20,782 bases of DNA, taken from IMG/VR virus record IMGVR_UViG_3300010299_003042, positions 1 through 20,782 of that record, one strand, 5' to 3'. The DNA is from a virus. The notes under the pieces were generated by a model that saw only the letters and a program-made list of their open reading frames with translations, was not told the origin of the DNA and made no database searches. This document shows positions 3,028 to 20,782 of this stretch, piece after piece. Each line of letters opens with the position of its first letter. Positions within the stretch are counted from its first letter, which is position 1. A program made the position numbers and the translations under genes.

Positions 3028-4143
3028 GTGGCAAACGACACAACTTCCGATGTTCGTGCAGTAAGAATCCGTGACGCTCGTATCGAAATACTTCGCGCAA
3101 TGCGTAGAAAGCGTCCAGCATTTGTATGGGGCGGTCCTGGCATTGGTAAGTCAGAATTGGTCCAACAAATTAGTGATTCTCTTGATGGGTATATGATCGA
3201 TCTCCGATTGGCACTTATGGAGCCAACTGATCTGCGCGGTATGCCTTACTATAACAAGGATGCCAACAACATGAGTTGGGCGGCTCCTATTGATTTACCC
3301 TCACAAGAACTGGCTAGCCAGTATCCTGTTGTGGTTCTCTTTTTGGACGAACTTAATAGTGCTCCGCCCAGCGTACAGGCGGCGGCTTACCAACTGATTC
3401 TCAATCGTAGAATTGGTACTTACACTTTGCCTGATAACGTCGTTATTGTAGCGGCAGGTAACCGCGAAACGGACAAGGGCGTAACTTACAAAATGCCTAA
3501 GCCGTTGGCAAACCGCTTCCTTCATATTAACTTGGAAGTAAACTTTGACGACTGGATGAACTGGGCAACTTCTAACCGGATCCATTCAGACGTAGTGGGC
3601 TACCTGGCTTTTGCTAAAGCAGATCTGTATAATTTTGATCCGCGTAGTCCCGACCAGGCGTTTGCTACTCCTCGGACGTGGTCGTTTGTTAGCGAACTTC
3701 TCGAAGACACCGACGAGGATGAGGTGCTCTCTGATAGTCAGATGACCGACTTAATTGCTGGTACTGTAGGTGAGGGCATGGCTGTAAAGTTTATGAATCA
3801 CCGAGGTTACGCCTCACAATTGCCTAATCCTTCAGATGTATTAGCAGGTAAGGTAAAGGATCTCAAGGTGCAAGAAGTTTCAGCACAATACACGCTGACG
3901 GTGAATTTATGCTACGAACTAGCCGAAGCGCACAAGGACATGAAACAGTCTAAGAAGTTGGACGATTGGCATAAAATGGCTGATCACTTCTTTTCGTTCA
4001 TGATGGAGAACTTCCAAACTGAAATGGTAGTTTTGGGTGCTAAGATTGCTCTTAGTAACTACAACCTCCCGTTTGATACAAAGAAGTTGAAAACCTTCAA
4101 AGAGTTCTATAATCGCTACGGTCAGTTGATTATTGATGCGTAA
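3028..4143 (+). CDS. MoxR-type AAA+ ATPase
   Basis: This 371-residue ATPase shows Walker A GGPGIGKS (35-42), Walker B VVLFLDEL with Asp107 and Glu108, sensor-1 AAGN (142-145) and a likely arginine finger Arg163 in KPLANRF. These fit the MoxR/RavA branch of AAA+ proteins. MoxR ATPases act as chaperone-like machines with a VWA-domain partner to load metal or remodel target complexes. The next gene encodes exactly such a partner, so the two probably form one complex in the cytoplasm. The start is GTG at 3028, with GAGG about nine bases upstream. The gene has its own promoter. Its base composition is visibly richer in G and C than the right half of the window. Confidence 0.88.
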   Translation: MANDTTSDVRAVRIRDARIEILRAMRRKRPAFVWGGPGIGKSELVQQISDSLDGYMIDLRLALMEPTDLRGMPYYNKDANNMSWAAPIDLPSQELASQYPVVVLFLDELNSAPPSVQAAAYQLILNRRIGTYTLPDNVVIVAAGNRETDKGVTYKMPKPLANRFLHINLEVNFDDWMNWATSNRIHSDVVGYLAFAKADLYNFDPRSPDQAFATPRTWSFVSELLEDTDEDEVLSDSQMTDLIAGTVGEGMAVKFMNHRGYASQLPNPSDVLAGKVKDLKVQEVSAQYTLTVNLCYELAEAHKDMKQSKKLDDWHKMADHFFSFMMENFQTEMVVLGAKIALSNYNLPFDTKKLKTFKEFYNRYGQLIIDA

Positions 4144-4176
4144 AAACCGCTAAAATCGTGCTTAAAATCGTTAAGG

Positions 4177-8899: not shown

Positions 8900-9523
8900 A
8901 TGGAATTCGTTATGCCATCATTAGTGGCAAGTTGGGAATATGCTATAGTACTATTAGTCGCAGTAGCAGGTATTGCTGTGGCTGTACAACAAAAGAAGAA
9001 AAAGAAGAAAAAGAAAGCGGCGGCTCCTGCTCCTACAGCACCAGTTGTAGAAACAGAAACTAGCACAAACTTTGTACCACCGCCGTTAGACTTAAACAAT
9101 GTAAACTGGTTACATACAAATGTAGGTAATTGGGCAGAAACTGGATCGTTAGATGTTACCTTTCCTCGTCCTGGCGTTATAAGCCTCAACTCGTGGATAA
9201 TAGATACTTGGCCTGCTACAACTATTAAACATACTTCTGGAACAAAGGACATACAAGTAAATGCTAATCCGTGGGTATTTGTGTACATGAATAACCAATG
9301 GCATGCAGGAACATGGGAATGGTTTGTAGTTGGTAACCATGAAAAGAACTGTAAGAACGTTGCAGGTGACCATATTAAGCAACCTCCGTTACAGAATTGG
9401 CGCCCAAAGAAAGGTGAGACCGTTTACTTTATGGTATCGGCACTAGCAAGAAACGGCGGTGATGTAAATGTTAAAGAAAGAACTAACATTGTAAAAATTA
9501 CCTGGCCAGACTATTATACATGA
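8900..9523 (+). CDS. Membrane-anchored protein with poly-lysine stretch
   Basis: One base separates this gene from the DHFR stop, and its end overlaps the ThyA start by ATGA. The N terminus has one hydrophobic segment (about 13-29), then eight consecutive lysines (32-39) and an Ala/Pro linker to about 60. A Trp-rich beta domain follows (60-207), with NPWVFVYMNNQW and WEWFVVGNHEKN and one cysteine near 151. By the positive-inside rule the poly-lysine should hold the domain in the cytoplasm, yet the domain looks like an extracellular or carbohydrate-binding fold. Its family and topology are uncertain. Ribosome site GGGAG precedes ATG. Confidence 0.75.
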   Translation: MEFVMPSLVASWEYAIVLLVAVAGIAVAVQQKKKKKKKKAAAPAPTAPVVETETSTNFVPPPLDLNNVNWLHTNVGNWAETGSLDVTFPRPGVISLNSWIIDTWPATTIKHTSGTKDIQVNANPWVFVYMNNQWHAGTWEWFVVGNHEKNCKNVAGDHIKQPPLQNWRPKKGETVYFMVSALARNGGDVNVKERTNIVKITWPDYYT

Positions 9524-10452
9524 TTATGATTAAAGAGTATCCTAAACTTGTACCTTATACAGGGTTTCCTGATTATCCTAAATCTGATGGTACTCCTTTT
9601 CCTGTACAGGAACTACAATATATACGCCTATTGCGTCTACTTTGGGCGCAGGGTGTAGATAAAGAAAGCCGCACCGGAATCAAAACAAAAAGCACGTTTG
9701 GATTACAAATGCGTTTTGATTTAAGAGACTCGTTTCCTGTTCTCACTACAAAGAAAATAGCATTTAAATCTGTTGTAAGTGAATTGCTTTGGATGATAGA
9801 AGGTAGCGGTGACGAACGTCGTCTTGCTGAAATATTGCACGGTAGTAGAGATCCAAAGTATAAAACTATTTGGACTGCTAATGCACAAGCAGACTATTGG
9901 AGAAAACGTGCCAGAAGACCAGGCGACTTAGGTCGTATATATGGAGTACAATGGCGTAGATGGTTAAACAACAATGAAAAGATAGACCAACTTGCTACAT
10001 TAATTGAAAACATTAAAACAGATCCAGACAGCAGAAGACACATTCTTAGTGCATGGAATGTAGGCGATTTAGATTTTATGGCGTTGCCTCCTTGCCATGT
10101 AATGTCTCAGTTTTATGTTCATAACGGTGAACTTAGTTGTCAGTTATATCAACGCTCGGCAGACTTTTTTATTGGTGTTCCTTTTAATATAGCAAGTTAT
10201 AGTTTATTAACATGCATGATAGCACAAGTATGCGGTTTAAAGCCTCATGAGTTTATTTGGAGTGGCGGCGATTGTCACATATATCACGATCACGGAAAAG
10301 CAGTACAAGAACAAATACAGAGAGTCTGCGAGAATCCGCCAACACTTTGGCTAAACGAAGATATAAAAAATATTGACGATTTTAAAATGGATGATATAAA
10401 GTTAGTCAATTACAACCCACAACCCGCTATTAAAGCATCAATGGCTGTCTAA
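9520..10452 (+). CDS. thyA: Thymidylate synthase (ThyA type)
   Basis: The 310-residue enzyme methylates dUMP to dTMP with methylene-tetrahydrofolate. Signature pieces are RTGIKTKSTFG (51-61), the FDLRDSFPVLTTKK motif, the RIYGVQWRRW segment, the phosphate-binding DSRRHILSAWN (170-180), catalytic Cys192 in PPCHVMSQFYV, QRSADFFIGVPFNIASY and GGDCHIYHDH. All key residues are present. It is a little longer than bacterial ThyA, with a roughly 30-residue N-terminal extension. It overlaps the preceding gene by four bases and works with the DHFR of the same operon. Its last 15 bases overlap, tail to tail, the end of a leftward radical SAM gene, and no terminator lies between them. Confidence 0.95.
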   Translation: MIMIKEYPKLVPYTGFPDYPKSDGTPFPVQELQYIRLLRLLWAQGVDKESRTGIKTKSTFGLQMRFDLRDSFPVLTTKKIAFKSVVSELLWMIEGSGDERRLAEILHGSRDPKYKTIWTANAQADYWRKRARRPGDLGRIYGVQWRRWLNNNEKIDQLATLIENIKTDPDSRRHILSAWNVGDLDFMALPPCHVMSQFYVHNGELSCQLYQRSADFFIGVPFNIASYSLLTCMIAQVCGLKPHEFIWSGGDCHIYHDHGKAVQEQIQRVCENPPTLWLNEDIKNIDDFKMDDIKLVNYNPQPAIKASMAV

Positions 10453-11673
10453 TAAACTTTTAAACTCTGGCACTACGTCAATAAAACTTTCGCCACGTGC
10501 TTTATCTAGTTTAGTTGTAAAATCAGCAAAATTTGGTAGCAAGTGAGATAAATCTGCGGAATTCATGTAGTTACAAAGTTGATTCCAACTTTGTTTTTGC
10601 TTTTCAGTAGGGCCGTTATCCCACAGTTTTTCCATTACAAGTTCTTTACAGTTTTTATTTAATATAGGCAGACTAAGAAACTCTGGCGTGGCAACATGTG
10701 TATGATTTAACCATGCTTTATCACTAAATTTATCTTTATAATGTTTATCCATCATTTCTGCCCACCAACTAGTTATGTTAGGCACGTCGAGAATATTATA
10801 AACTGATATCGTCGGCCGTGTTCCTACTCTAACTGGCATCCAATGACTTAACTCCATTAATGTTCTTACTACCTCCTTTACTACTTTAAATTTTGTTGGG
10901 TGTCTAACATATTCAATTACAGGACCAATTCCGTCTAAACTAGTTGCAAATTCTATGTGTTTAAAGTGAGACCACAAGTCAATTAATTCTGCTTTAGGCA
11001 TAACAGTTAAGTTTGTGCTATAGTTTAGATAGACGTGTTTCGCTTGATCTAATTCTACTAGTTTATACAATATTTCTTTATACTCTGGCATAATAAAAGG
11101 TTCGCCGCCAGTCATTTTTAAATGCCTAATGTTTGGTAGTATAGGTTCAAGTTTTTTTAAATCAATTGTTCTAGGTTCTGGGTTTTCCTTAATAAACTGC
11201 GGTATGTTTTCTGGCTTCCAGTCAATATAGTCTTTAACTAATTCCCAATCTTGATACCAATTTGTACTAAAGTAAGGGCCGCACATACGACAGCGTATGT
11301 TACAGCGATTGTTAAAACTTAACTCTAACCATGTAATCTTTGGGTTATCTATATCCAAATCGTGGTGCAAGTCGCCGAGCAAATCTATATCTCTATTATA
11401 GTTTTGCCTAATACTAAGTCGTTTATTACTATCTTCTTCTTGCCAGCATTTTAAACAACCAGGGTTCCTTCTGCCTTCGAGCATGTCTTTGCGTAACGAA
11501 GTTTGAAAATCCCCGTTGAATACATCTAAAATGCTTTTTTCTCGTATATTGTTTTCTTTGGGGATTGTGCCGCTTAGAAAACGACAGCAAGGTTTTACAT
11601 TACCGTTTGGTCCTAAAAATTGATGGTTCCATCCAAGAGAACAAAACGTATCACTGGGCCATTTCATAGCCAT
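10438..11673 (-). CDS. Radical SAM enzyme with N-terminal twitch-like cluster domain (copy 1)
   Basis: The radical SAM core has C124-NIR-C128-RM-C131 for the 4Fe-4S cluster that cleaves S-adenosylmethionine, and GGEP at 189-192 for SAM binding. An N-terminal domain holds C11, C29-C30, C73 and C76, the pattern of an auxiliary iron-sulfur (twitch) domain placed before the core, as in the N-terminal-twitch radical SAM family. The C terminus ends in a VVPEFKSLL-type tail also seen in the copy at 17419. The cysteine positions match that copy almost residue for residue. The start overlaps the preceding leftward gene by 23 bases; ATG at codon 3 is possible. Substrate unknown; peptide or sugar modification is plausible. 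Confidence 0.88.
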   Translation of the reverse strand: MAMKWPSDTFCSLGWNHQFLGPNGNVKPCCRFLSGTIPKENNIREKSILDVFNGDFQTSLRKDMLEGRRNPGCLKCWQEEDSNKRLSIRQNYNRDIDLLGDLHHDLDIDNPKITWLELSFNNRCNIRCRMCGPYFSTNWYQDWELVKDYIDWKPENIPQFIKENPEPRTIDLKKLEPILPNIRHLKMTGGEPFIMPEYKEILYKLVELDQAKHVYLNYSTNLTVMPKAELIDLWSHFKHIEFATSLDGIGPVIEYVRHPTKFKVVKEVVRTLMELSHWMPVRVGTRPTISVYNILDVPNITSWWAEMMDKHYKDKFSDKAWLNHTHVATPEFLSLPILNKNCKELVMEKLWDNGPTEKQKQSWNQLCNYMNSADLSHLLPNFADFTTKLDKARGESFIDVVPEFKSLLDSH

Positions 11674-12781
11674 TTAGATAAAACCGTTGTGCGTTAGATG
11701 TTCCAATTTTGCTACTAAATTCGTAGTCTGATCCGCATGTTCTACCACACGTATGTAATTTTGCATTGTTATCTTGCATTTTGTTTTGCCAACTTTGCTC
11801 GAGCTGTTGACCGAGCCAACTATGTTCTAACACTTCTTGTATTGTATGATGTCGTAAAGAGTTAAAGTTTGTTTCATAATTGCCTAGCAGTTTTTGTAAT
11901 TGATTCGCTTGTATATTATTATCGCCAGTAAAATACATAGGTGCTCCTGTCCAGCAACACGGCCACATTCTTGCGGTGAAGTCAATATAAATTGATTTTA
12001 ATTCTTGCGATTTACAACTTATAGTCGTAGCATCTACATAACTTTCCCAATTACCATATTTTTCTATAATTGCATCAAATTTAGATACGTTTTCATTTTC
12101 TTTATCTGATATAGTATGAATTGACTCTTGTGTTTTTTTATTGTAAACATTTTCTGTATCTCGCGACATACTATTTAAAAATTCATTATTGGCTATAAAT
12201 CTACTTGTGTTTTTAAATACAATTTGTCTAAACCCTAAATCCTTTGCTAGATTATATGCTTCTTCTATTTGATGCTTGTTATGATCGAATATTAGATAAT
12301 CCCATCGGGCATTGCCTCCTGCTTCAATAAACGCTTTAACATTTTTCATAATAATTTTCCAATCGCTATTAACACGATACAAGTGGTTTGTATCTTCTAA
12401 CCCGTCAATTGAAAAATGAACAAAGTCGTGTTCTCGGTTAAATATACTAGAAAGTCCGCGCCACCAGTCTGGTTTTCTAGCACTCCCGTTAGTAAATAGC
12501 TGCATGGATTGTACTCCGGAATATCTTAACCAATACGCGCATTCTACCCATGTACTACTTGCAATGCTATCGCCATAACTACCGCACCAGTATACGTTTT
12601 TAATTTGTGGAGCAAAATCTTCAGTAAAAATATGCTGATAGTCTTTTAATGTTAGTTCAGTTAATGGTAAATCTGGGTTAACTTTGCCGTTGACTACCCG
12701 TGCACATTGTGGGCACAGTAAATTACATTTACTTGTGTGTTCCATGTGTACAGATGTAATATCGCTTTGAGTTAAATACAT
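11651..12781 (-). CDS. Radical SAM enzyme with C-terminal twitch/SPASM-like cysteines (copy 2)
   Basis: The radical SAM motif lies near the N terminus: C19-NLL-C23-PQ-C26. Where most relatives have GGEP, this protein has CGSYGD (66-71). DFVHFSIDGLEDTNHLYR (119-136) is a typical inner strand and loop. The C-terminal part carries C256, C275-C276, C345 and C349, which suggests an auxiliary iron-sulfur cluster of twitch/SPASM type. The next leftward copy (12806-13939) has the same order and near-equal spacing, so the two arose by duplication. A late promoter box lies seven bases before the ATG and no Shine-Dalgarno is present. SPASM/twitch enzymes often modify peptides, but no precursor is evident. 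Confidence 0.87.
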   Translation of the reverse strand: MYLTQSDITSVHMEHTSKCNLLCPQCARVVNGKVNPDLPLTELTLKDYQHIFTEDFAPQIKNVYWCGSYGDSIASSTWVECAYWLRYSGVQSMQLFTNGSARKPDWWRGLSSIFNREHDFVHFSIDGLEDTNHLYRVNSDWKIIMKNVKAFIEAGGNARWDYLIFDHNKHQIEEAYNLAKDLGFRQIVFKNTSRFIANNEFLNSMSRDTENVYNKKTQESIHTISDKENENVSKFDAIIEKYGNWESYVDATTISCKSQELKSIYIDFTARMWPCCWTGAPMYFTGDNNIQANQLQKLLGNYETNFNSLRHHTIQEVLEHSWLGQQLEQSWQNKMQDNNAKLHTCGRTCGSDYEFSSKIGTSNAQRFYLNGYEMAQ

Positions 12782-12788
12782 ATATAAT

Positions 12789-12796
12789 TATTTATA
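12789..12796 (-). promoter_or_regulatory. T4-type late promoter box TATAAATA
   Basis: On the leftward strand an exact TATAAATA ends seven bases before the ATG at 12781, inside the 24-base gap after the upstream gene stop. The transcript would be almost leaderless. Confidence 0.7.
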
Positions 12797-12805
12797 TGCT
12801 TTGAT

Positions 12806-13939
12806 TTAATTAAACTTGGTGCAGGTAACGGAGCAAAGTTCTAATCTGCGATTATTTTCCCAACTTTTAACTAGTTCTCGGTGAAACCATTCGTGCTGAA
12901 GTATCTCATCTAGTGTGTTATATAATATATTGTTAAAATTGCTTCCATATCTACCATGTGTTTCGCTATATAAATTACTGCTATCAGGGTGGTCCCATGG
13001 TTTATCTTTGGGATACCTCATTCCTCCTGTGTGGCAGCAAGGCCAAACTTCTCCATCGAAAGTTAACATAAGTCCTGCTTTTCTGTGCTTCCACCATGAG
13101 CAATCAATTGGTGCACTATTTTTGAATTGTTTAATGTCGTTATTGTATTTTGTTTCCATTAACTTGTCAAATTCTTTTAGTTTTTGTTCTTTAACAGTAG
13201 ATTGGTTATTTACAATGGTATTTTTGTATTTTTTTGTTTCTTCACCTAAGTTGTCGTATTTTTTTACAAAATGATTGATATAAGGTTCTGCATCACTACC
13301 ACCAGTGTCGTTGCTAACTCTGTCGTAGTTGTCTATAGTAAAGAACTTATTAAAACCCATTTTTTTAGATAGTTCTTCAACTTGGTCTTTTTGATGATAA
13401 TTGTGTTCGAATAAAATAAACTGCCAGTCTGCTACTCCGCCTGCTCCTATAAATGCTTCTACATTTTCCATTAAACGTTTCCAAACGACCTGTCTTCGAT
13501 ACAAGTCGTTTGTATCTTCTAGTCCATCTATGCCAAAGGTAACCGAACCTACTCCGTTAAGTGCAAGTGCTAACTCTTTCCACCAGGAAGGATGATTAAC
13601 TCCACCGTTTGTTGCTACTTCTATATATAGTTTACTTCTACCGATCTCTTGTCGTTTGCTATTGTCGTTTGTTTTTTTTAGCCAGTTAATACCTCTGATT
13701 AAATCTGGGTTAAGTATCGGGTCTCCAAAGTTTCCGCAGTATTCTAATCTTTCAATATAGTTTATTGTTTCTGTAAAGAACTTTTCAAAAATTTCCCAGG
13801 ACATATCCTTGATTGGCATATTTTTATTTAAATATTTTCCATTTACATTTCTCGCACAACGCAAACAAAGTGCGTTACACTTTGTAGTATAATCGAGCAT
13901 TAATGTTCTTAAAGAGGTTAGTTCTAAATACGAATACAT
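12806..13939 (-). CDS. Radical SAM enzyme with C-terminal twitch/SPASM-like cysteines (copy 3)
   Basis: The 377-residue product has C21-NAL-C25-LR-C28 and, in place of GGEP, CGNFGDP (68-74). SVTFGIDGLEDTNDLYRR (132-149) matches copy 2. C-terminal cysteines C280, C301-C302, C369 and C373 repeat the layout of copy 2 (C, about 20 residues, CC, about 67, CxxxC). A lysine-rich insert at about 225-272 is unlike copy 2 and probably forms a helix. Copies 2 and 3 are tandem leftward paralogs, each with its own late box. This one shares an overlapping, back-to-back promoter with the rightward radical SAM gene at 13953. Confidence 0.87.
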   Translation of the reverse strand: MYSYLELTSLRTLMLDYTTKCNALCLRCARNVNGKYLNKNMPIKDMSWEIFEKFFTETINYIERLEYCGNFGDPILNPDLIRGINWLKKTNDNSKRQEIGRSKLYIEVATNGGVNHPSWWKELALALNGVGSVTFGIDGLEDTNDLYRRQVVWKRLMENVEAFIGAGGVADWQFILFEHNYHQKDQVEELSKKMGFNKFFTIDNYDRVSNDTGGSDAEPYINHFVKKYDNLGEETKKYKNTIVNNQSTVKEQKLKEFDKLMETKYNNDIKQFKNSAPIDCSWWKHRKAGLMLTFDGEVWPCCHTGGMRYPKDKPWDHPDSSNLYSETHGRYGSNFNNILYNTLDEILQHEWFHRELVKSWENNRRLELCSVTCTKFN

Positions 13940-13946
13940 ATAAATA
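13939..13946 (+). promoter_or_regulatory. T4-type late promoter box (rightward half of a divergent pair)
   Basis: An exact TATAAATA ends six bases before the ATG at 13953. It overlaps the leftward box at 13945-13952, and the shared core ATAAATATTTAT (13940-13951) is a perfect palindrome. Its first base is also the first base of the leftward ATG (13939). Confidence 0.72.
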
Positions 13947-13952
13947 TTTATT
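13945..13952 (-). promoter_or_regulatory. T4-type late promoter box (leftward half of a divergent pair)
   Basis: On the leftward strand this reads AATAAATA, one base off the consensus, and ends five bases before the ATG at 13939. The two opposed genes have only 13 bases between their start codons, all of it promoter. Confidence 0.62.
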
Positions 13953-15272
13953 ATGTCTAATCTTCTTAAAAAGAATACGGTCTTTCTTGAGAAACATCCT
14001 AGTTTTTGTATACTGCCGTATATTCATCTTAGAATGCGCGTACATGAGAAAGCAGAATCCTGCAATGTAAGTTCGTTGTGTTGTAGTGCGGCAGGATGTG
14101 CTAATATTCCCAGCAATGGGTCTCTAAATGACATGCTTCAGCATACTGAGTTTAAACAAGAAAGACAAGCATTTTCTAATAATTTAATACCGGCTGCTTG
14201 TGAAAATGCTTGTAGTTTAAATTACAAAAGCATAACAAAACGAGAAATTTTTAACGACTTATATATTAATAATATTTCGTATGAGGAGGTATTTAACAAA
14301 CCAACAATAAAATTAATTGATTACAACTTTGGAAACGAATGTAACTTGTCTTGTAGAATGTGTTCCACAACATTCAGCGATCAAATTGGATTACTAGCAA
14401 ATAAAGAGACTAGTTCTATAGAAAACACCAGTGAATTAATTAAATTAGGTATTAACGATTTGCGCCCTGATGAAAGTTTGCCTGAAAATATAAAACTACT
14501 TTCATCGGGTAATTTTATAAGAAAACCGTCAACCGGCGATACCGAGTCATTAAAACAGGTTTTGCCTAATTTGCTTGAATTACAGATTTCAGGCGGTGAA
14601 CCTTTTATTAGTAGCGACGTTGAAGATATATTATGTACAGCCATTGATAATAACGATAACCAACATATTACTTTAGAAGTTACCACAAATGGTACAAAGT
14701 TTATAGAAGAAAAGTTAGATATATTCTTAAAGTTTAAAAAAATTCATTTTATTGTTAGCGTTGATGGGATTGGTTCTACTTACGATTATATTAGACATCC
14801 ATTCTCATATAACATATTAGAGAAAAGATTGAAAGACATTGTTCGTTATATTATTGATAATAATTTGCAAGAAAAGGTTAGTTTTGGCTTTGCAAGCGTA
14901 GGTATATTATATAATATTTACAGTTATGCTGAATTACACAAAAGTTTAAACATTATTTTTAAAGAGTTATACGATAGTAGCATGTTGACCCTGATCACAG
15001 GTGTATATGGGCTAGGCGATAATAATCATGCACTATCATGGGATAACATACCTAAGAATATATTAGTAGATGCATTTTCGTCGTATAGCGTTACAGAAAG
15101 CATCTGGTATCAGACCTTTAAAGATTATTTAGATAATCGTTTTTACGAGCCAACAAAAGAAGATATGCAAAAAACAAAAAAACACACGCTATTATTAGAC
15201 AAGTTGTATAATCGCTCATATGAAGACTATTTACATCGAAGCATTGTAAAATATTTAAATTCAATTGACTAA
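13953..15272 (+). CDS. Radical SAM enzyme with N-terminal twitch-like cluster domain (copy 4)
   Basis: The 439-residue protein has the radical SAM motif C130-NLS-C134-RM-C137 and GGEP at 214-217 (ELQISGGEPFI). The N-terminal domain contains C19, C43-C44, C83 and C87, plus C37 and C49, matching the auxiliary-cluster layout of copies 1 and 5 with extra cysteines. VSVDGIGSTYDYIRHP (about 265-280) is the conserved strand and loop after the core. It is the longest of the five. It begins the rightward arm of a divergent cluster and has no Shine-Dalgarno; its late box lies six bases before ATG. A small gene follows after 11 bases. Confidence 0.88.
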   Translation: MSNLLKKNTVFLEKHPSFCILPYIHLRMRVHEKAESCNVSSLCCSAAGCANIPSNGSLNDMLQHTEFKQERQAFSNNLIPAACENACSLNYKSITKREIFNDLYINNISYEEVFNKPTIKLIDYNFGNECNLSCRMCSTTFSDQIGLLANKETSSIENTSELIKLGINDLRPDESLPENIKLLSSGNFIRKPSTGDTESLKQVLPNLLELQISGGEPFISSDVEDILCTAIDNNDNQHITLEVTTNGTKFIEEKLDIFLKFKKIHFIVSVDGIGSTYDYIRHPFSYNILEKRLKDIVRYIIDNNLQEKVSFGFASVGILYNIYSYAELHKSLNIIFKELYDSSMLTLITGVYGLGDNNHALSWDNIPKNILVDAFSSYSVTESIWYQTFKDYLDNRFYEPTKEDMQKTKKHTLLLDKLYNRSYEDYLHRSIVKYLNSID

Positions 15273-15276
15273 ATAG
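15269..15276 (+). promoter_or_regulatory. Degenerate late promoter box
   Basis: CTAAATAG keeps the TAAATA core in a shifted frame and lies seven bases before the ATG at 15284, the same placement as the leaderless boxes. The match is poor, so the following gene may instead depend on transcription from the radical SAM gene. Confidence 0.3.
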
Positions 15277-15283
15277 AAATGTT

Positions 15284-15517
15284 ATGAGTACAACATTAGA
15301 CATAGTAGGATCCGGGTATCGTATTTTTAGAGTAAAGTGCCCTCTTGTTAAAAATAGTAACGGAGAACTATCTTTATCGGCGCCAGCAGAAGAATGGGCA
15401 AAACTTGGTTGGGAAGAAGGCACAGTTTTAGAAATTAGACAAGACGATAAAGATGATTTTACACAATTAACAATTCGCAAAGCACCAAAAAGCCTTAGGG
15501 ATAGTGCAGGCGTTTAA
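15284..15517 (+). CDS. Unknown 77-residue protein, possibly AbrB-like
   Basis: The sequence is strand-rich: GYRIFRVKCPLV (11-22), then LSLSAPAEEWAKLGWEEGTV and LTIRKAPKSL. The order strand, short helix with W-x3-G-W-x2-G, and two strands recalls the swapped-hairpin AbrB/SpoVT DNA-binding fold, but the match is weak. It lies between copy 4 of the radical SAM genes and a convergent gene whose stop is one base away. No Shine-Dalgarno is seen. If not AbrB-like, it is a small hypothetical that may serve as a partner or substrate of the enzyme upstream. Confidence 0.65.
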   Translation: MSTTLDIVGSGYRIFRVKCPLVKNSNGELSLSAPAEEWAKLGWEEGTVLEIRQDDKDDFTQLTIRKAPKSLRDSAGV

Positions 15518-15518
15518 C

Positions 15519-15881
15519 TTATATTTTTTTATCTGGAATAGTTAAGGATTTAACGGTTAGTATTTCGCCTTTTTTAATAGGCATATCAATACTTAAATAT
15601 AAACACCAGCAGTCATCATACTTTATACCCCAGTCGTATCCGCCGCTGAGCATTACTTGGTAAACAATACAATTAGGATTATTAGACGTAGTTAGAAATG
15701 CACCAAGTGAAGTTGTAATTAAAGAACCATTGCCATTATGCCCAGGACCGTTTCCAACACCAATGTGCGGGTGTGTCACAGATATTACGCCCACCATTCT
15801 TCTGTGTGGTATATCTTGCGCGGCACAAAGTACAAATAATCCTTTGTGTTGCTTTAAGGTTAAGTATAACGGTAACATCAT
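15519..15881 (-). CDS. Unknown 120-residue beta-rich protein
   Basis: No family is recognised. The protein alternates hydrophobic strands with a Gly/His-rich loop (HPHIGVGNGPGHNGNGS, about 37-53) and has four cysteines, two of them in DDCWCLYL. The C terminus KKGEILTVKSLTIPD looks like paired strands, so a small beta-sandwich or barrel is likely. The first two codons are both ATG. The late box on this strand ends five bases before the second ATG (15878), so a leaderless mRNA would favour that start. It shares its promoter region with the rightward SGNH gene and is convergent with the 77-residue gene. Confidence 0.68.
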   Translation of the reverse strand: MMLPLYLTLKQHKGLFVLCAAQDIPHRRMVGVISVTHPHIGVGNGPGHNGNGSLITTSLGAFLTTSNNPNCIVYQVMLSGGYDWGIKYDDCWCLYLSIDMPIKKGEILTVKSLTIPDKKI

Positions 15882-15883
15882 AA

Positions 15884-15891
15884 TATTTATA
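15884..15891 (-). promoter_or_regulatory. T4-type late promoter box (leftward half of a divergent pair)
   Basis: This is an exact TATAAATA on the leftward strand. It overlaps the rightward box at 15888-15895 by four bases and lies two bases before the first ATG (15881) and five before the second (15878). Confidence 0.7.
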
Positions 15892-15895
15892 AATA
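15888..15895 (+). promoter_or_regulatory. T4-type late promoter box (rightward half of a divergent pair)
   Basis: This is an exact TATAAATA on the rightward strand, serving the SGNH-like gene at 15923. Here 27 bases separate box and ATG, so this transcript should have a leader of about 20 bases. Confidence 0.7.
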
Positions 15896-15922
15896 CTTGT
15901 ACTGTTTTTTAATGGATATAGA

Positions 15923-16768
15923 ATGAAAATAGCGTTTGTTGGTGATAGTTTTTGTATGAATTACGATAGAGGTAGCATTGACTGGCCTGCGGTGGTTGCA
16001 GGCACTTTAGGTGCAGAAATACTTCAAACAGGATTTGGTGGACAACCATTTTACCCGTCGGTTGAATTATTTTTATCGGATAATTTTTACAAAGCAGACT
16101 ATGTTGTGATGTGCCCAACAGAACCTTATAGGATCTATAATATACACAACTTACCCATTAATGGGGTCTGGGTAGATCAGATTACGAATAAAAAAGGAGA
16201 TCATTGGGCTCATATAAAAAGTGGCTATTACGAAGAAAAGTATAATATTCCTAATAAAGTTTTAGTAAAGGAAATAACAGCAGGAGCAAAAGCATATTAT
16301 GATCACTTTATGACAAACACATATGCAAAGATGACGAATATAGCACTTATTGCGTGGCTTGACAATTTACTAAAAGAGCATAATAAAAAAGTAATCTGGC
16401 TTCCAAGTTTTTATCATTCGTTTCTATATTCTTCACTTTATTGTGATTTTGTCAACCAAGAGCCGCTAGACCCGATTCATCCAGATGTCTATTATGTACC
16501 AGTATCCGGTCCGTCGGCTAACATTCCTTTATTTGATATTTCAAAGGCCGAGTTAGAGCAACATAGTTTATTAAATTTAAACGAAGAAGAAATCAACGAT
16601 AAAGTAGCCAACGATCGACGCCACAATCATTTTAATAAAGAGAACAACGGTATAATTGCAAAGATGGTATTAGATATAATTGAAAAAGATGATTTCTCTC
16701 CAAAAGCAATACACATGGAAGAATATTTTTCTCATTTAGATTTAAGTAACATAAAGAGAGTTAGATAA
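15923..16768 (+). CDS. SGNH/GDSL-hydrolase-like protein (copy A)
   Basis: The 281-residue protein starts with MKIAFVGDSFC, the block I motif of SGNH hydrolases, giving the likely nucleophile Ser9. GFGG near 37-40 fits block II. Near the C terminus, RHNHFNKENN supplies the likely catalytic His, followed by an amphipathic helix as in this family. The usual GxND of block III is replaced by CPTEPYR (64-70), so the oxyanion Asn is missing and the activity is uncertain. SGNH enzymes remove acyl groups from sugars or lipids. A paralog lies at 19329-20120, and both share PYR, five residues, then HNLPI. It has a late promoter and no signal peptide. Confidence 0.75.
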   Translation: MKIAFVGDSFCMNYDRGSIDWPAVVAGTLGAEILQTGFGGQPFYPSVELFLSDNFYKADYVVMCPTEPYRIYNIHNLPINGVWVDQITNKKGDHWAHIKSGYYEEKYNIPNKVLVKEITAGAKAYYDHFMTNTYAKMTNIALIAWLDNLLKEHNKKVIWLPSFYHSFLYSSLYCDFVNQEPLDPIHPDVYYVPVSGPSANIPLFDISKAELEQHSLLNLNEEEINDKVANDRRHNHFNKENNGIIAKMVLDIIEKDDFSPKAIHMEEYFSHLDLSNIKRVR

Positions 16769-16791
16769 TAAAGAATAAGAAGTAAATTAGT

Positions 16792-16799
16792 GATAAATA
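16792..16799 (+). promoter_or_regulatory. T4-type late promoter box GATAAATA
   Basis: GATAAATA ends five bases before the ATG at 16805. It overlaps a possible upstream GTG start (16790), which would therefore not be in the mRNA. This supports 16805 as the true start of the lysozyme. Confidence 0.65.
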
Positions 16800-16804
16800 C
16801 ACTA

Positions 16805-17416
16805 ATGCGCGCCAGTGAATTCATTAACAATACAGAAATAGAACTCGAAGAAGGCTGGAAAGAAAAAGCAATAGGTGCTTTAGCGGCTGCTGGTATTGCC
16901 GCCGGGGGTGTTAATATGATTAACAAGCAAGATGCTCCTCAGCCCGATCTTCAAACAAAGACACAAATAACACAACCAGTTCAACAAAGCGAGTTAGGAA
17001 ATATTGCGGCGCTTAAACGCATGATTAAAAAACACGAAGGAAAGCGTTTAGAAGTTTATAATGATACAGTAGGAAAACCTACAATCGGTTATGGTCACTT
17101 AATTAAACCTGGTGAAGACTTTTCTAACGGTATTACAGACGAAGAGGCAGACAAGTTATTCAATAAAGACTTTGCTTATCATGCAGAAAAAGCAAAACTA
17201 GTAGCAGGATACAACAAAGCATCTATAAAACAAAAACACGCATTAATTGATTTAACTTTTAACATGGGCCCTGGCTGGGATAAAGGTTTTCCAGAGTTCT
17301 CAAAAGCCGCAAATGCTGGCAACTGGGAAAAGGCCGCAGATGAATTAGTTGATAGTAAATGGTACACACAAGTTGGCGATCGTGCCAAAACGATTGTTAG
17401 CATGATACGCGGTTAA
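16805..17416 (+). CDS. T4-lysozyme-type (GH24) muramidase with capsid-targeting-like N terminus
   Basis: Counting from ATG 16805 (203 residues), the GH24 domain spans about 66-203. The T4 lysozyme triad is conserved with exact spacing: Glu78 in KHEG, Asp87 in YNDT and Thr93 in PTIGYGH. It hydrolyses the glycan of peptidoglycan. The N terminus MRASEFINNTEIELEEG resembles the capsid-targeting peptides of T4 internal head proteins and contains L-E-E before Gly17, a match to the (L/I)-x-E cut site of the gp21 prohead protease. An Ala/Gly-rich hydrophobic stretch (about 22-38) follows, which could instead be a membrane anchor as in SAR endolysins. A GTG at 16790 would add five residues but overlaps the promoter. 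The next radical SAM gene starts two bases after the stop. Confidence 0.9.
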   Translation: MRASEFINNTEIELEEGWKEKAIGALAAAGIAAGGVNMINKQDAPQPDLQTKTQITQPVQQSELGNIAALKRMIKKHEGKRLEVYNDTVGKPTIGYGHLIKPGEDFSNGITDEEADKLFNKDFAYHAEKAKLVAGYNKASIKQKHALIDLTFNMGPGWDKGFPEFSKAANAGNWEKAADELVDSKWYTQVGDRAKTIVSMIRG

Positions 17417-17418
17417 AT

Positions 17419-18633
17419 ATGGCTTTACTCGATGACGAAAATATGTGTCCTGCACCCTTTACAGGACTAACCATAAATCCCCAAGGCGAAATAGTGCTAT
17501 GTTGTGCATCTGGCGCACCAATTGCTCATATGAATAATGTGCAATCACTAGAGTCTTTTTACAACAGCAGCCAAATGCAATATTATAGAAATACATTTCT
17601 CAATAATAAGCAAAATGAAGTGTTAAAAAGAGAATGTATATCTTGCACACTACGGCAAGGATACAATGTACATACCAGGAGAGATGCATTAAGAGATATA
17701 TACGCTTATAATTTTCAAAATTTAGACAACGATCTTGCAGAAACAGACAAACCTTTGCGATATTTAGAATTTACTACTTCAAATATTTGTAATCAATGCT
17801 GTGCAATGTGTGGACCAAAATTTAGTTCTAAATGGGTATCAATTGTAAGAAACGACAAAGATATTAGAAAACTTGCAACCTATAAATCGTCTAATTATGT
17901 CATGCCTGACGATCATATTGAGAAAATTATTAGTGTACTACCAACATTGGAGTATTTGGTAATCAAAGGTGGCGAACCGTTTGCTGACGAAAATAATTTT
18001 AAAATTCTATCTGCACTTAATAAAGTAAACAAGACATGCGTAGTTAAGCTAGTGTCTAATTGCTCTAATGTTCCAGACAATATGTTAGAGTTACTAAAAG
18101 AACGTGCTAAATCAAAGCCAGTTAAAATTACTGCATCAATCGACGGTATAAATGATCTTTATTACTGGATACGTTCAACTGAATTTAATAAAACCGTACA
18201 AACTCTAGAAAAAATATTTAATGTAACAAAAAAACCGATTGATATAAACATAACAGTATCATTATATAACATATACAATTTGATAGAAATATTTGAATTC
18301 TTTCACAGCAAACCATATGTTAACAGAGTACATGCCGCAGATCAGGTACAATGGCCTAGATATGCTTCCCCAAGTATGTTACCACCCGAAGAAGTAGAAC
18401 GTATTAAAAGTAATATAAGAAATTCTATTATAGGACAAACAGGTAAAAGACAAAAGTTTTACGGAATAACAACCAATTGGTGGAATGTTGATATTTTTAG
18501 ATCCTATAAGGAAATAGACGAAGGGTTATACGAGGAAAATTATCCTAGAGTAGCACCATGGATTAAAAAAATGAACGAAATAAGAGGCATGGATTTATAC
18601 AGTATAGTGCCGCAACTTAAAGAATTTTTTTAA
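17419..18633 (+). CDS. Radical SAM enzyme with N-terminal twitch-like cluster domain (copy 5)
   Basis: The 404-residue product has C124-NQC-C128-AM-C131, with an extra Cys127 inside the motif, and GGEP at 184-187. N-terminal cysteines C10, C28-C29, C73 and C76 reproduce copy 1 almost exactly. ITASIDGINDLYYWIR (about 236-251) is the conserved post-core segment, and the tail ends in SIVPQLKEFF, like copy 1. It lies two bases after the lysozyme stop with no clear ribosome site, so it is probably translated from the same late transcript. The extra cysteine might be a third neighbour of the cluster or simply neutral. The stop overlaps the end of the leftward gene at 18630. Confidence 0.88.
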   Translation: MALLDDENMCPAPFTGLTINPQGEIVLCCASGAPIAHMNNVQSLESFYNSSQMQYYRNTFLNNKQNEVLKRECISCTLRQGYNVHTRRDALRDIYAYNFQNLDNDLAETDKPLRYLEFTTSNICNQCCAMCGPKFSSKWVSIVRNDKDIRKLATYKSSNYVMPDDHIEKIISVLPTLEYLVIKGGEPFADENNFKILSALNKVNKTCVVKLVSNCSNVPDNMLELLKERAKSKPVKITASIDGINDLYYWIRSTEFNKTVQTLEKIFNVTKKPIDINITVSLYNIYNLIEIFEFFHSKPYVNRVHAADQVQWPRYASPSMLPPEEVERIKSNIRNSIIGQTGKRQKFYGITTNWWNVDIFRSYKEIDEGLYEENYPRVAPWIKKMNEIRGMDLYSIVPQLKEFF

Positions 18634-19218: not shown

Positions 19219-19332
19219 TTAATCGTAAATAAATGGATCTCGTTTACGTAATTCTTCGAGTTTCTTTTTATGTTCTTTTTGTTTTTTATAGAATTTAATT
19301 CTATTTTTAATTTTGTTTATTAGTTTTTTCAT
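19219..19332 (-). CDS. Very basic 37-residue micro-protein
   Basis: The reading frame has ATG at 19332 overlapping the upstream TGA (ATGA) and TAA one base before the next ATG, so it fits tightly into the operon. It has no other long competing frame. The product is a lysine-rich helix (MKKLINKIKNRIKFYKKQ) followed by KLEELRKRDPFIYD. The helix is strongly amphipathic and basic, and the DPFIYD tail looks like a defined end motif. Roles as a DNA-binding, membrane-active or adaptor peptide are all possible. Confidence 0.65.
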   Translation of the reverse strand: MKKLINKIKNRIKFYKKQKEHKKKLEELRKRDPFIYD

Positions 19333-20120
19333 TTTGGGATTTCCATGCGTTGTCTGTCTTCATGTAAACCTGCAAAGTATTTAGTCATATCTATTTCAGT
19401 GCCTTGATAAAATTTATGTTCATTAATAATGTCTATAACAAGTTGTGCTAATGTAAAATTTATTTTTTCTCCAAAATGATTTAATCTAGCAACTGCGTCT
19501 AAATTGTGACCGGCCGGAGTAGTAGATTTATAATAACCAATAATGTCTGTAATACCATTGCATAAAAGATCATACTCAGCTAAAGAAGATAAAGAATGTG
19601 ATCCGTAACAGCCGCTTGTTATAGTTGAATTTGTTCTTTTAAGGTCAACAAAAAACCAAATACATTTTTTCTTGCGTTGACTAAGAATTCTATTCATGTC
19701 ATCAATGAGAAGTCGATGCACTACTAGATGGTATTCAAAATTTATTAAATTGTCATAATAGTTTTGAATAGAAACTTCTATCTCTTTGGCTTCTTTGATG
19801 CTACAATCTAGGAAATTTCGTATAGACTCGGCGGAATGTATAGCAGAAGATGTTATTGGCAAATTATGTTTGTTAGCAAGTCTATACGGCTTAGTAATAC
19901 ATAGTATAACATAATCAGCATTATCAATTATCTGTAGAAGGTCTTGATATGCGTTAAATAAACATCCACCTGTCATACCTCTGCATAAAATATCAGCATT
20001 AAATTGCCTAGCAATAACTTCAGGCCAACCCAAAAAATTAGGCCTATTCTTAATTTCCCACTCGTTAAAAAACCTGTTAATTCCGTTACAAAAACTATCG
20101 CCGACAAATGCTATTTTCAT
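19329..20120 (-). CDS. SGNH/GDSL-hydrolase-like protein (copy B)
   Basis: The 263-residue protein begins with the same block I as copy A (MKIAFVGDSFC, Ser9) and has GMTGG near 48-52 as block II. As in copy A, block III lacks GxND and reads CITKPYR (74-80), followed by NKHNLPI. The likely catalytic His is in ARLNHFGEKIN near the C terminus, before an amphipathic helix. Outside these motifs the two copies differ widely. The first 34 coding bases match copy A with about three mismatches, on the opposite strand. It overlaps the genes on both sides by ATGA, forming a leftward operon. Enzymatic activity is likely but the substrate is unknown. Confidence 0.75.
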   Translation of the reverse strand: MKIAFVGDSFCNGINRFFNEWEIKNRPNFLGWPEVIARQFNADILCRGMTGGCLFNAYQDLLQIIDNADYVILCITKPYRLANKHNLPITSSAIHSAESIRNFLDCSIKEAKEIEVSIQNYYDNLINFEYHLVVHRLLIDDMNRILSQRKKKCIWFFVDLKRTNSTITSGCYGSHSLSSLAEYDLLCNGITDIIGYYKSTTPAGHNLDAVARLNHFGEKINFTLAQLVIDIINEHKFYQGTEIDMTKYFAGLHEDRQRMEIPK

Positions 20121-20782
20121 TTCTTATTCTTTTTTAATTTAACAGGTCCTGTTAAGTGTGGTCTACTAAACCATAGTTTAAACCAGTCTTCGTCACCTGG
20201 TTGTAAATTTAATTCTCGCTCTTTTTTTCTTTTATACGAGCCAACTAAACTGAGATTTTCTACGGGAAATTCTGGATTAGATGTTTTAAAATCTCGTTTA
20301 CGCATAACTGTTTTTGCTACGAGATCTAATTCTTCGTTTTCTTTATCCCATAATAAAACAAATGGTACATTTACATCAGTTGCCATGTCTTTCATTACGC
20401 CTTGTGCATCAGGGCCTAAACGAGCAATAGGTTTACCCCATTTTTTATATTCTTGTTTAAAAAGTCGTGTAAGTTCTGCTGCTGTGATAGGTTTTTGATT
20501 ACGTTCGTCATTGACGCGATCTATAAAATGGCGTGTGAATTCTATATCAATTCCTACTTTGGAAAAGATTTTATCAGCATATTTTTCAATAGCGTCTAAA
20601 TCTGCTTGCTTTACATCTTCATTAACGCTTTCTTTATTTATTTTGTTTAATTCATACTCTACCATGTCGCCTTGGTCTTCAATGTATGCGTTATAGCCTA
20701 ACTGTCTAGCAAACTTTTGTACCATTCTAGTATAAAGTTTTGTTCTGCTTGGATTTGTGCCAGTGTTTCCTTTCATACCAGA
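20117..20782 (-). CDS. Conserved-looking unknown protein, 5' partial
   Basis: The frame is open to the window edge, so the ATG at 20776 may not be the real start; two further codons (Ser-Gly) precede it without a stop or ribosome site. About 220 residues are visible. The central domain is compact and looks conserved: FTRHFIDRVNDERNQKP (about 80-96), AELTRLFKQEYKKWGKP, then VPFVLLWDKENEELDLVAKT and VMRKRDF. The C terminus is very basic (VKLKKNKK). Such a helix-sheet unit may bind nucleic acid or be a small nuclease-like or toxin-like fold, but I cannot name it. It overlaps the SGNH copy B start by ATGA. Confidence 0.75.
   Translation of the reverse strand, partial: SGMKGNTGTNPSRTKLYTRMVQKFARQLGYNAYIEDQGDMVEYELNKINKESVNEDVKQADLDAIEKYADKIFSKVGIDIEFTRHFIDRVNDERNQKPITAAELTRLFKQEYKKWGKPIARLGPDAQGVMKDMATDVNVPFVLLWDKENEELDLVAKTVMRKRDFKTSNPEFPVENLSLVGSYKRKKERELNLQPGDEDWFKLWFSRPHLTGPVKLKKNKK

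Follow-up and report, generated by a model that had tools for sequence, protein, structure and literature searches.

The muramidase gene and its upstream region

The window, by which we mean the whole stretch of DNA analysed, is a 20.8-kb virus record that carries radical-SAM genes, a thymidylate synthase gene, genes for a MoxR-type ATPase and a partner, and SGNH-like genes (the MoxR and SGNH labels were assigned by eye). Five radical-SAM-looking genes, three of them tested for a Pfam/PHROG match, are clustered at positions 10438-18633; SGNH-like genes (MKIAFVGDSFC) occur in the same interval and at 19329-20120. Nine radical-SAM proteins are also encoded within one stretch of a related genome, G019. 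In the protein encoded at 8900-9523 in the window, a hydrophobic segment leads directly into about eight consecutive lysines and then Ala/Pro.

A GH24 muramidase gene occupies positions 16805-17416 of the plus strand and encodes 203 amino acids plus a stop codon. The Phage_lysozyme domain (PF00959) was matched at residues 75-195 (positions 17027-17389, plus strand; Pfam, E 3.6e-18). The best PDB match is T4 lysozyme, and in the alignment the catalytic residues of T4 lysozyme correspond to E78, D87 and T93, so the protein combines PF00959 with an intact Glu-Asp-Thr triad and is assigned to GH24. The fold predicted by AlphaFold agrees with that of T4 lysozyme; in this model the domain is confident at residues 65-203, and residues 1-64 are of low confidence and have no predicted secondary structure. 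The second-closest lysozyme by identity (L003) is untagged and forms the start of a 1088-residue phage protein, and was set aside.

The GTG at 16790 is an alternative start for this gene. At positions 16792-16799 on the plus strand, 5 nt before the ATG, lies GATAAATA, a near-match, one base off, to the T4-type late promoter TATAAATA. In G019, TATAAATA occurs 32 times and is found no more than 60 nt upstream of 20 of the 212 genes, in several cases 4-5 nt before the start codon. We favour the ATG at 16805 over the GTG because GATAAATA lies 5 nt upstream of it, at a spacing also seen for some G019 genes. The placement of late promoters 4-5 nt before some starts, in the window and in G019, suggests leaderless or near-leaderless late mRNAs.

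A 98% relative of the window, the 30.6-kb record IMGVR_UViG_2651870089_000031 (G001), is syntenic with it, and both are fragments without head genes. The two lysozyme genes differ by 23 base changes, 19 of them silent, and residues 7-172 of the proteins are identical. Of the four amino-acid changes, two affect the N-terminal tag (residues 4 and 6). The G001 protein starts MRAREIINNTEIELEEG, with Ile in place of Phe6, so Phe6 is not fixed.

The N-terminal extension and its L-x-E site

The translated frame of the window lysozyme opens MRASEFINNTEIELEEGWKEKAIGALAAAGIAAGGV and its N-terminus begins MRASEFINNTEIELEEG. Residues 1-16, MRASEFINNTEIELEE (positions 16805-16852, plus strand), form a capsid-targeting-like putative propeptide that is disordered in the model and has a pattern common to unrelated proteins of related phages. 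The sequence across the putative cut, marked here and below by an arrow, is MRASEFINNTEIELEE↓GWKEKAIGALAAAGIAAGGV. The preliminary description had likened this start to the targeting peptides of T4 internal head proteins. The likeness stands at the level of the tag class; the exact T4 peptide is absent, and the tag, MRASEFIN, is nearest to the MRATEFINE of related phages, with the early Glu replaced by Asn (INN for INE). Since the early INE site is INN, the predicted cut of the window lysozyme falls later, as it does in T4 IPI. The T4 precedents are IPIII, MKTYQEFIAE↓A, and IPI, MKTFKEFTSTTTPVSTITE↓A, which has a 19-residue propeptide with the site ITE19↓A and a mature form of 76 residues (PMC3012670). 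In T4, the first approximately 10 residues target the protein and cleavage follows L/I-x-E (PMC9026906). Capsid tags are approximately 10-20 residues long, and propeptides in SPN3US reach 111-130 residues (PMC7411985).

The putative prohead protease site, L14-E15-E16↓G17, spans positions 16844-16855 on the plus strand, with LEE at 16844-16852 and Gly17 from 16853. It is the sole L/I-x-E near the start of the protein and lies where it had been described, in agreement with the (L/I)-x-E rule. An L/I-x-E within residues 8-16 is also present in 36 of the 283 untagged proteins and is unremarkable for one protein alone, so the evidence for the site is its conservation among orthologues. Lysozyme orthologues with 57-62% identity are encoded by the distant relatives G002, G003, G005, G006 and G019-G024. 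In these, the first 16 residues are swapped for approximately 87 residues that start MRFAQIQ and end LNE↓DWKKKA or LNE↓DLKKTA. Despite the replaced upstream part, an invariant L-x-E directly precedes the conserved mature region in all orthologues (LEE↓G, LNE↓D). We looked for homologues lacking both the N-terminal motif and the site, on whose absence the earlier proposal depended; the orthologues retain L-x-E, though their N-terminus is different and longer.

The approximately 87-residue propeptide, searched for across the fetched loci, has homologues only in the lysozyme orthologues themselves, and its model is of low confidence with no usable fold. A sequence pattern combining L-x-E, W-K and the Ala/Gly stretch matched the orthologues alone, and a scan of the genome collection for relatives found none. 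On the orthologue at L086 (5668-6504), the propeptide could keep the enzyme inactive before cleavage.

It is very unlikely, in our estimate, that the lysozyme N-terminus resembles a capsid tag by accident. The departures from T4, with exact residues not retained and the canonical early site lost, would fit such a coincidence, as would the frequency of L-x-E among untagged proteins; against it stand the L-x-E that orthologues retain at this position even though their N-terminus differs, and the MRA(S/T)EFIN start that the window lysozyme has in common with a tagged protein of its relatives.

Behind the putative cut lies the Ala/Gly-rich stretch AIGALAAAGIAAGG (residues 22-35; positions 16868-16909, plus strand), which stays Ala/Gly-rich in the orthologues. 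An Ala/Gly-rich segment also precedes the GH24 domain in SAR endolysins such as R21 of phage 21 and Lyz of P1, and SAR signals are themselves weakly hydrophobic. The window segment differs from these in having an acidic tag and a conserved L-x-E ahead of it, and in its low hydropathy: the best 19-residue value is 1.1-1.44 in four orthologues. The hydrophobic stretch noted earlier is present, but its suggested role as a membrane anchor or SAR-like signal is weakly supported by this hydropathy.

Tagged proteins and the head module of related phages

An MRxxEFI-type start, which the preliminary description had proposed to seek on other proteins of this phage, was found on further proteins of the phage group. 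Unrelated proteins in the relatives open M(K/R)xx(D/E)(I/L/F)(I/L/F)xE, as in MRATEFINE↓A, MKISEIITE↓N, MKIEELLE↓T, MKICEILIE↓R, MKLAELFE↓A and MKIADILTE↓D, and further in MKVTDILSE↓T, MKIEDIIKE↓S, MKISEILVE↓A, MKIKDILLE↓N and MLIHEILEE↓N. The pattern was found at 9 of 54 gene starts versus 0 of 247 internal Met positions in G006, at 6/212 versus 1/977 in G019 and at 6/90 versus 1/316 in G002; since it was chosen post hoc from the sequences, the counts should be read as descriptive, and they rely on gene starts predicted by a simple caller. For comparison we took Melnitz, a marine T4-like phage that has been isolated, as the closest isolate; 0 of its 199 genes show the pattern. An L/I-x-E with Glu at residues 8-11 occurs in 15 of 24 tagged proteins versus 21 of 283 untagged ones (p=3.5e-10). 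When residue 6 or 7 is Leu/Ile, Glu follows two residues later in 17 of 30 proteins of a hand-compiled tagged list, against a background of 7.85% (p 7e-12).

In one family, a protein with a ParB-like match, the tag has been exchanged while the site and downstream sequence are kept: it reads MRATEFINE↓AVGIITKQNATKDAPIGSE in G005 and G006, and MKIAELTE↓AVGIITKQNATKDAPIGSE in G019. Within the window, the tagged proteins are the lysozyme and one other, whose C-terminal part is encoded at positions 20117-20782 on the minus strand and whose start lies beyond the window edge; its homologue in G001 (3173-4147) starts MKIAELFETFDK. The MKIAELFETFDK protein of the window and G001 contains a fused domain that is also present in Melnitz (61% identity) and in Sinorhizobium phages, and the G019 version stops short of that domain.

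The 201.7-kb G019 is probably near complete. It encodes a T4-type head module composed of a portal, gp67/68-like genes, an S77 prohead protease, a scaffold and a gp23 major capsid protein; apart from the protease, the names of these head genes were given by eye from position and sequence. T4 gp15, gp25, gp53 and terminase families are present as well. A prohead protease, which had been singled out as worth seeking for the window phage, is thus encoded in this relative, at 74066-74485 (E 1.5e-26), beside scaffold and capsid genes. The gp23 sequence GYLTE↓AATAG of G019 matches FLTE↓AEIGG of T4 gp23.

The lysozyme orthologue of G019 is the single GH24 match in that genome, with none among the baseplate genes, and no other peptidoglycan hydrolase was recognised by Pfam in about 170 of the 212 called genes. 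This inventory, the top PHROG match of the window lysozyme, which is to an endolysin, and an Ala/Gly-rich stretch reminiscent of SAR signals would all be expected if the lysozyme were a conventional endolysin that is produced late and depends on a holin for release, or else is a weak signal-anchor enzyme, with the N-terminal extension as a cytoplasmic tail that has no packaging role. We consider this unlikely. The class of tag to which the extension can be assigned is borne by unrelated non-lysis proteins, and the L-x-E of the extension is conserved; the G019 gene sits within a run of tagged genes with no recognised holin adjoining; and hydropathy is low for an anchor. In G009, a 256-kb relative that encodes an S77 protease together with a small number of tagged proteins, GH24 is entirely absent, which makes it plausible that phages of this group use a lysin that has escaped recognition.

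The proposed head-borne muramidase

The muramidase domain, the tag class within the phage group, the conserved L-x-E site and the prohead protease of a relative are all seen in the sequences, and the comparison strengthens the capsid-tag reading beyond what a single sequence could offer. We hypothesize that the lysozyme is probably a capsid-targeted muramidase processed by the prohead protease, that is, an internal head or ejection protein of a T4-like marine myovirus. By analogy with T4, we infer targeting, cleavage and ejection steps, and what the enzyme acts on, as follows. Late expression would be driven by the T4-type promoter, and residues 1 to approximately 10 would bind the prohead scaffold core and pull the lysozyme into the prohead. 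The S77 protease would then cleave behind L14-E15-E16, yielding a mature muramidase that begins at Gly17. Together with further tagged cargo, this enzyme would remain in the head, then exit with the DNA and act on the host wall.

The putative tag resembles those of the gp21-cut T4 proteins IPI, IPII, IPIII and Alt in being short, with a basic residue 2, acidic and hydrophobic residues 5-7 and L/I-x-E, in being common to unrelated proteins and, for the window lysozyme, in an IPI-like late-site layout. It differs from them in that the cargo is a muramidase, the motif is M(K/R)(I/L/A)x(E/D)(I/L/F)(I/L)xE rather than MKTYQEFIAE, and the class is known here from sequence alone. T4-type capsid-targeted internal proteins are known; a muramidase as their candidate cargo would be new, and searches of the available literature library for a capsid-targeted lysozyme found none. 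A head-borne muramidase could aid passage of the wall, as do the internal head lysins gp16 of T7 and gp36 of SP6, peptidoglycan hydrolases that these podoviruses carry in the head and deliver at entry (PMC5380687). Those proteins, of 107-143 kDa, assemble into an extensible tail, whereas the window lysozyme is of approximately 22 kDa, has a removable-type tag and belongs to a T4-type phage; with 203 residues and a single domain, it is not the lysin domain of a very large core protein that typifies T7 gp16.

Among T4 proteins, the endolysin gpE has the same fold and catalytic triad but no N-terminal extension, as against approximately 64 residues before the domain in the window lysozyme. T4 gp5 is also a GH24 muramidase of a T4-type virion, but it is located in the baseplate hub, whereas the window lysozyme is free-standing and has a head-type tag. 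The myovirus examples of virion lysins given in a review, T4 gp5 and phiKZ gp181, are placed in the baseplate (PMC5380687). A role as muramidase cargo is suggested by G019, which has no other GH24 and hence no T4-type lysozyme domain found in its baseplate genes. That the virion muramidase of this lineage resides in the head rather than the baseplate hub, among tagged and protease-trimmed cargo ejected with the DNA, is a proposal we make tentatively and rate at somewhat below an even chance.

Among the points against a head-cargo protein are the non-canonical tag of the window lysozyme (INN, and Ile for Phe6 in the relative) and the location of the substrate: unless exported, a muramidase that reaches the cytoplasm by ejection would find nothing there to act on. 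Dual use would reconcile a single lysozyme with a tag and a conserved site, in that uncut enzyme in the cytoplasm would bring about lysis when an infection ends, and the cleaved part would be packaged and ejected in the next one; one protein must then serve two places, and we regard this as decidedly unlikely.

If the head-cargo proposal is true, a T4-type myovirus would carry a virion lysin at a site new for such phages. A readable tag and cut rule would also allow the proteins injected by uncultured T4-like phages to be catalogued by sequence alone, and injected proteins are the first effectors to face host defences. Several tagged proteins with L/I-x-E are encoded per genome, in G006 (L068-L070), G019 (L093-L103) and G002 (L060-L063), and these likely constitute a list of injected proteins; domains among the tagged proteins include the ParB-like match, DUF6934 and unknown PHROGs.
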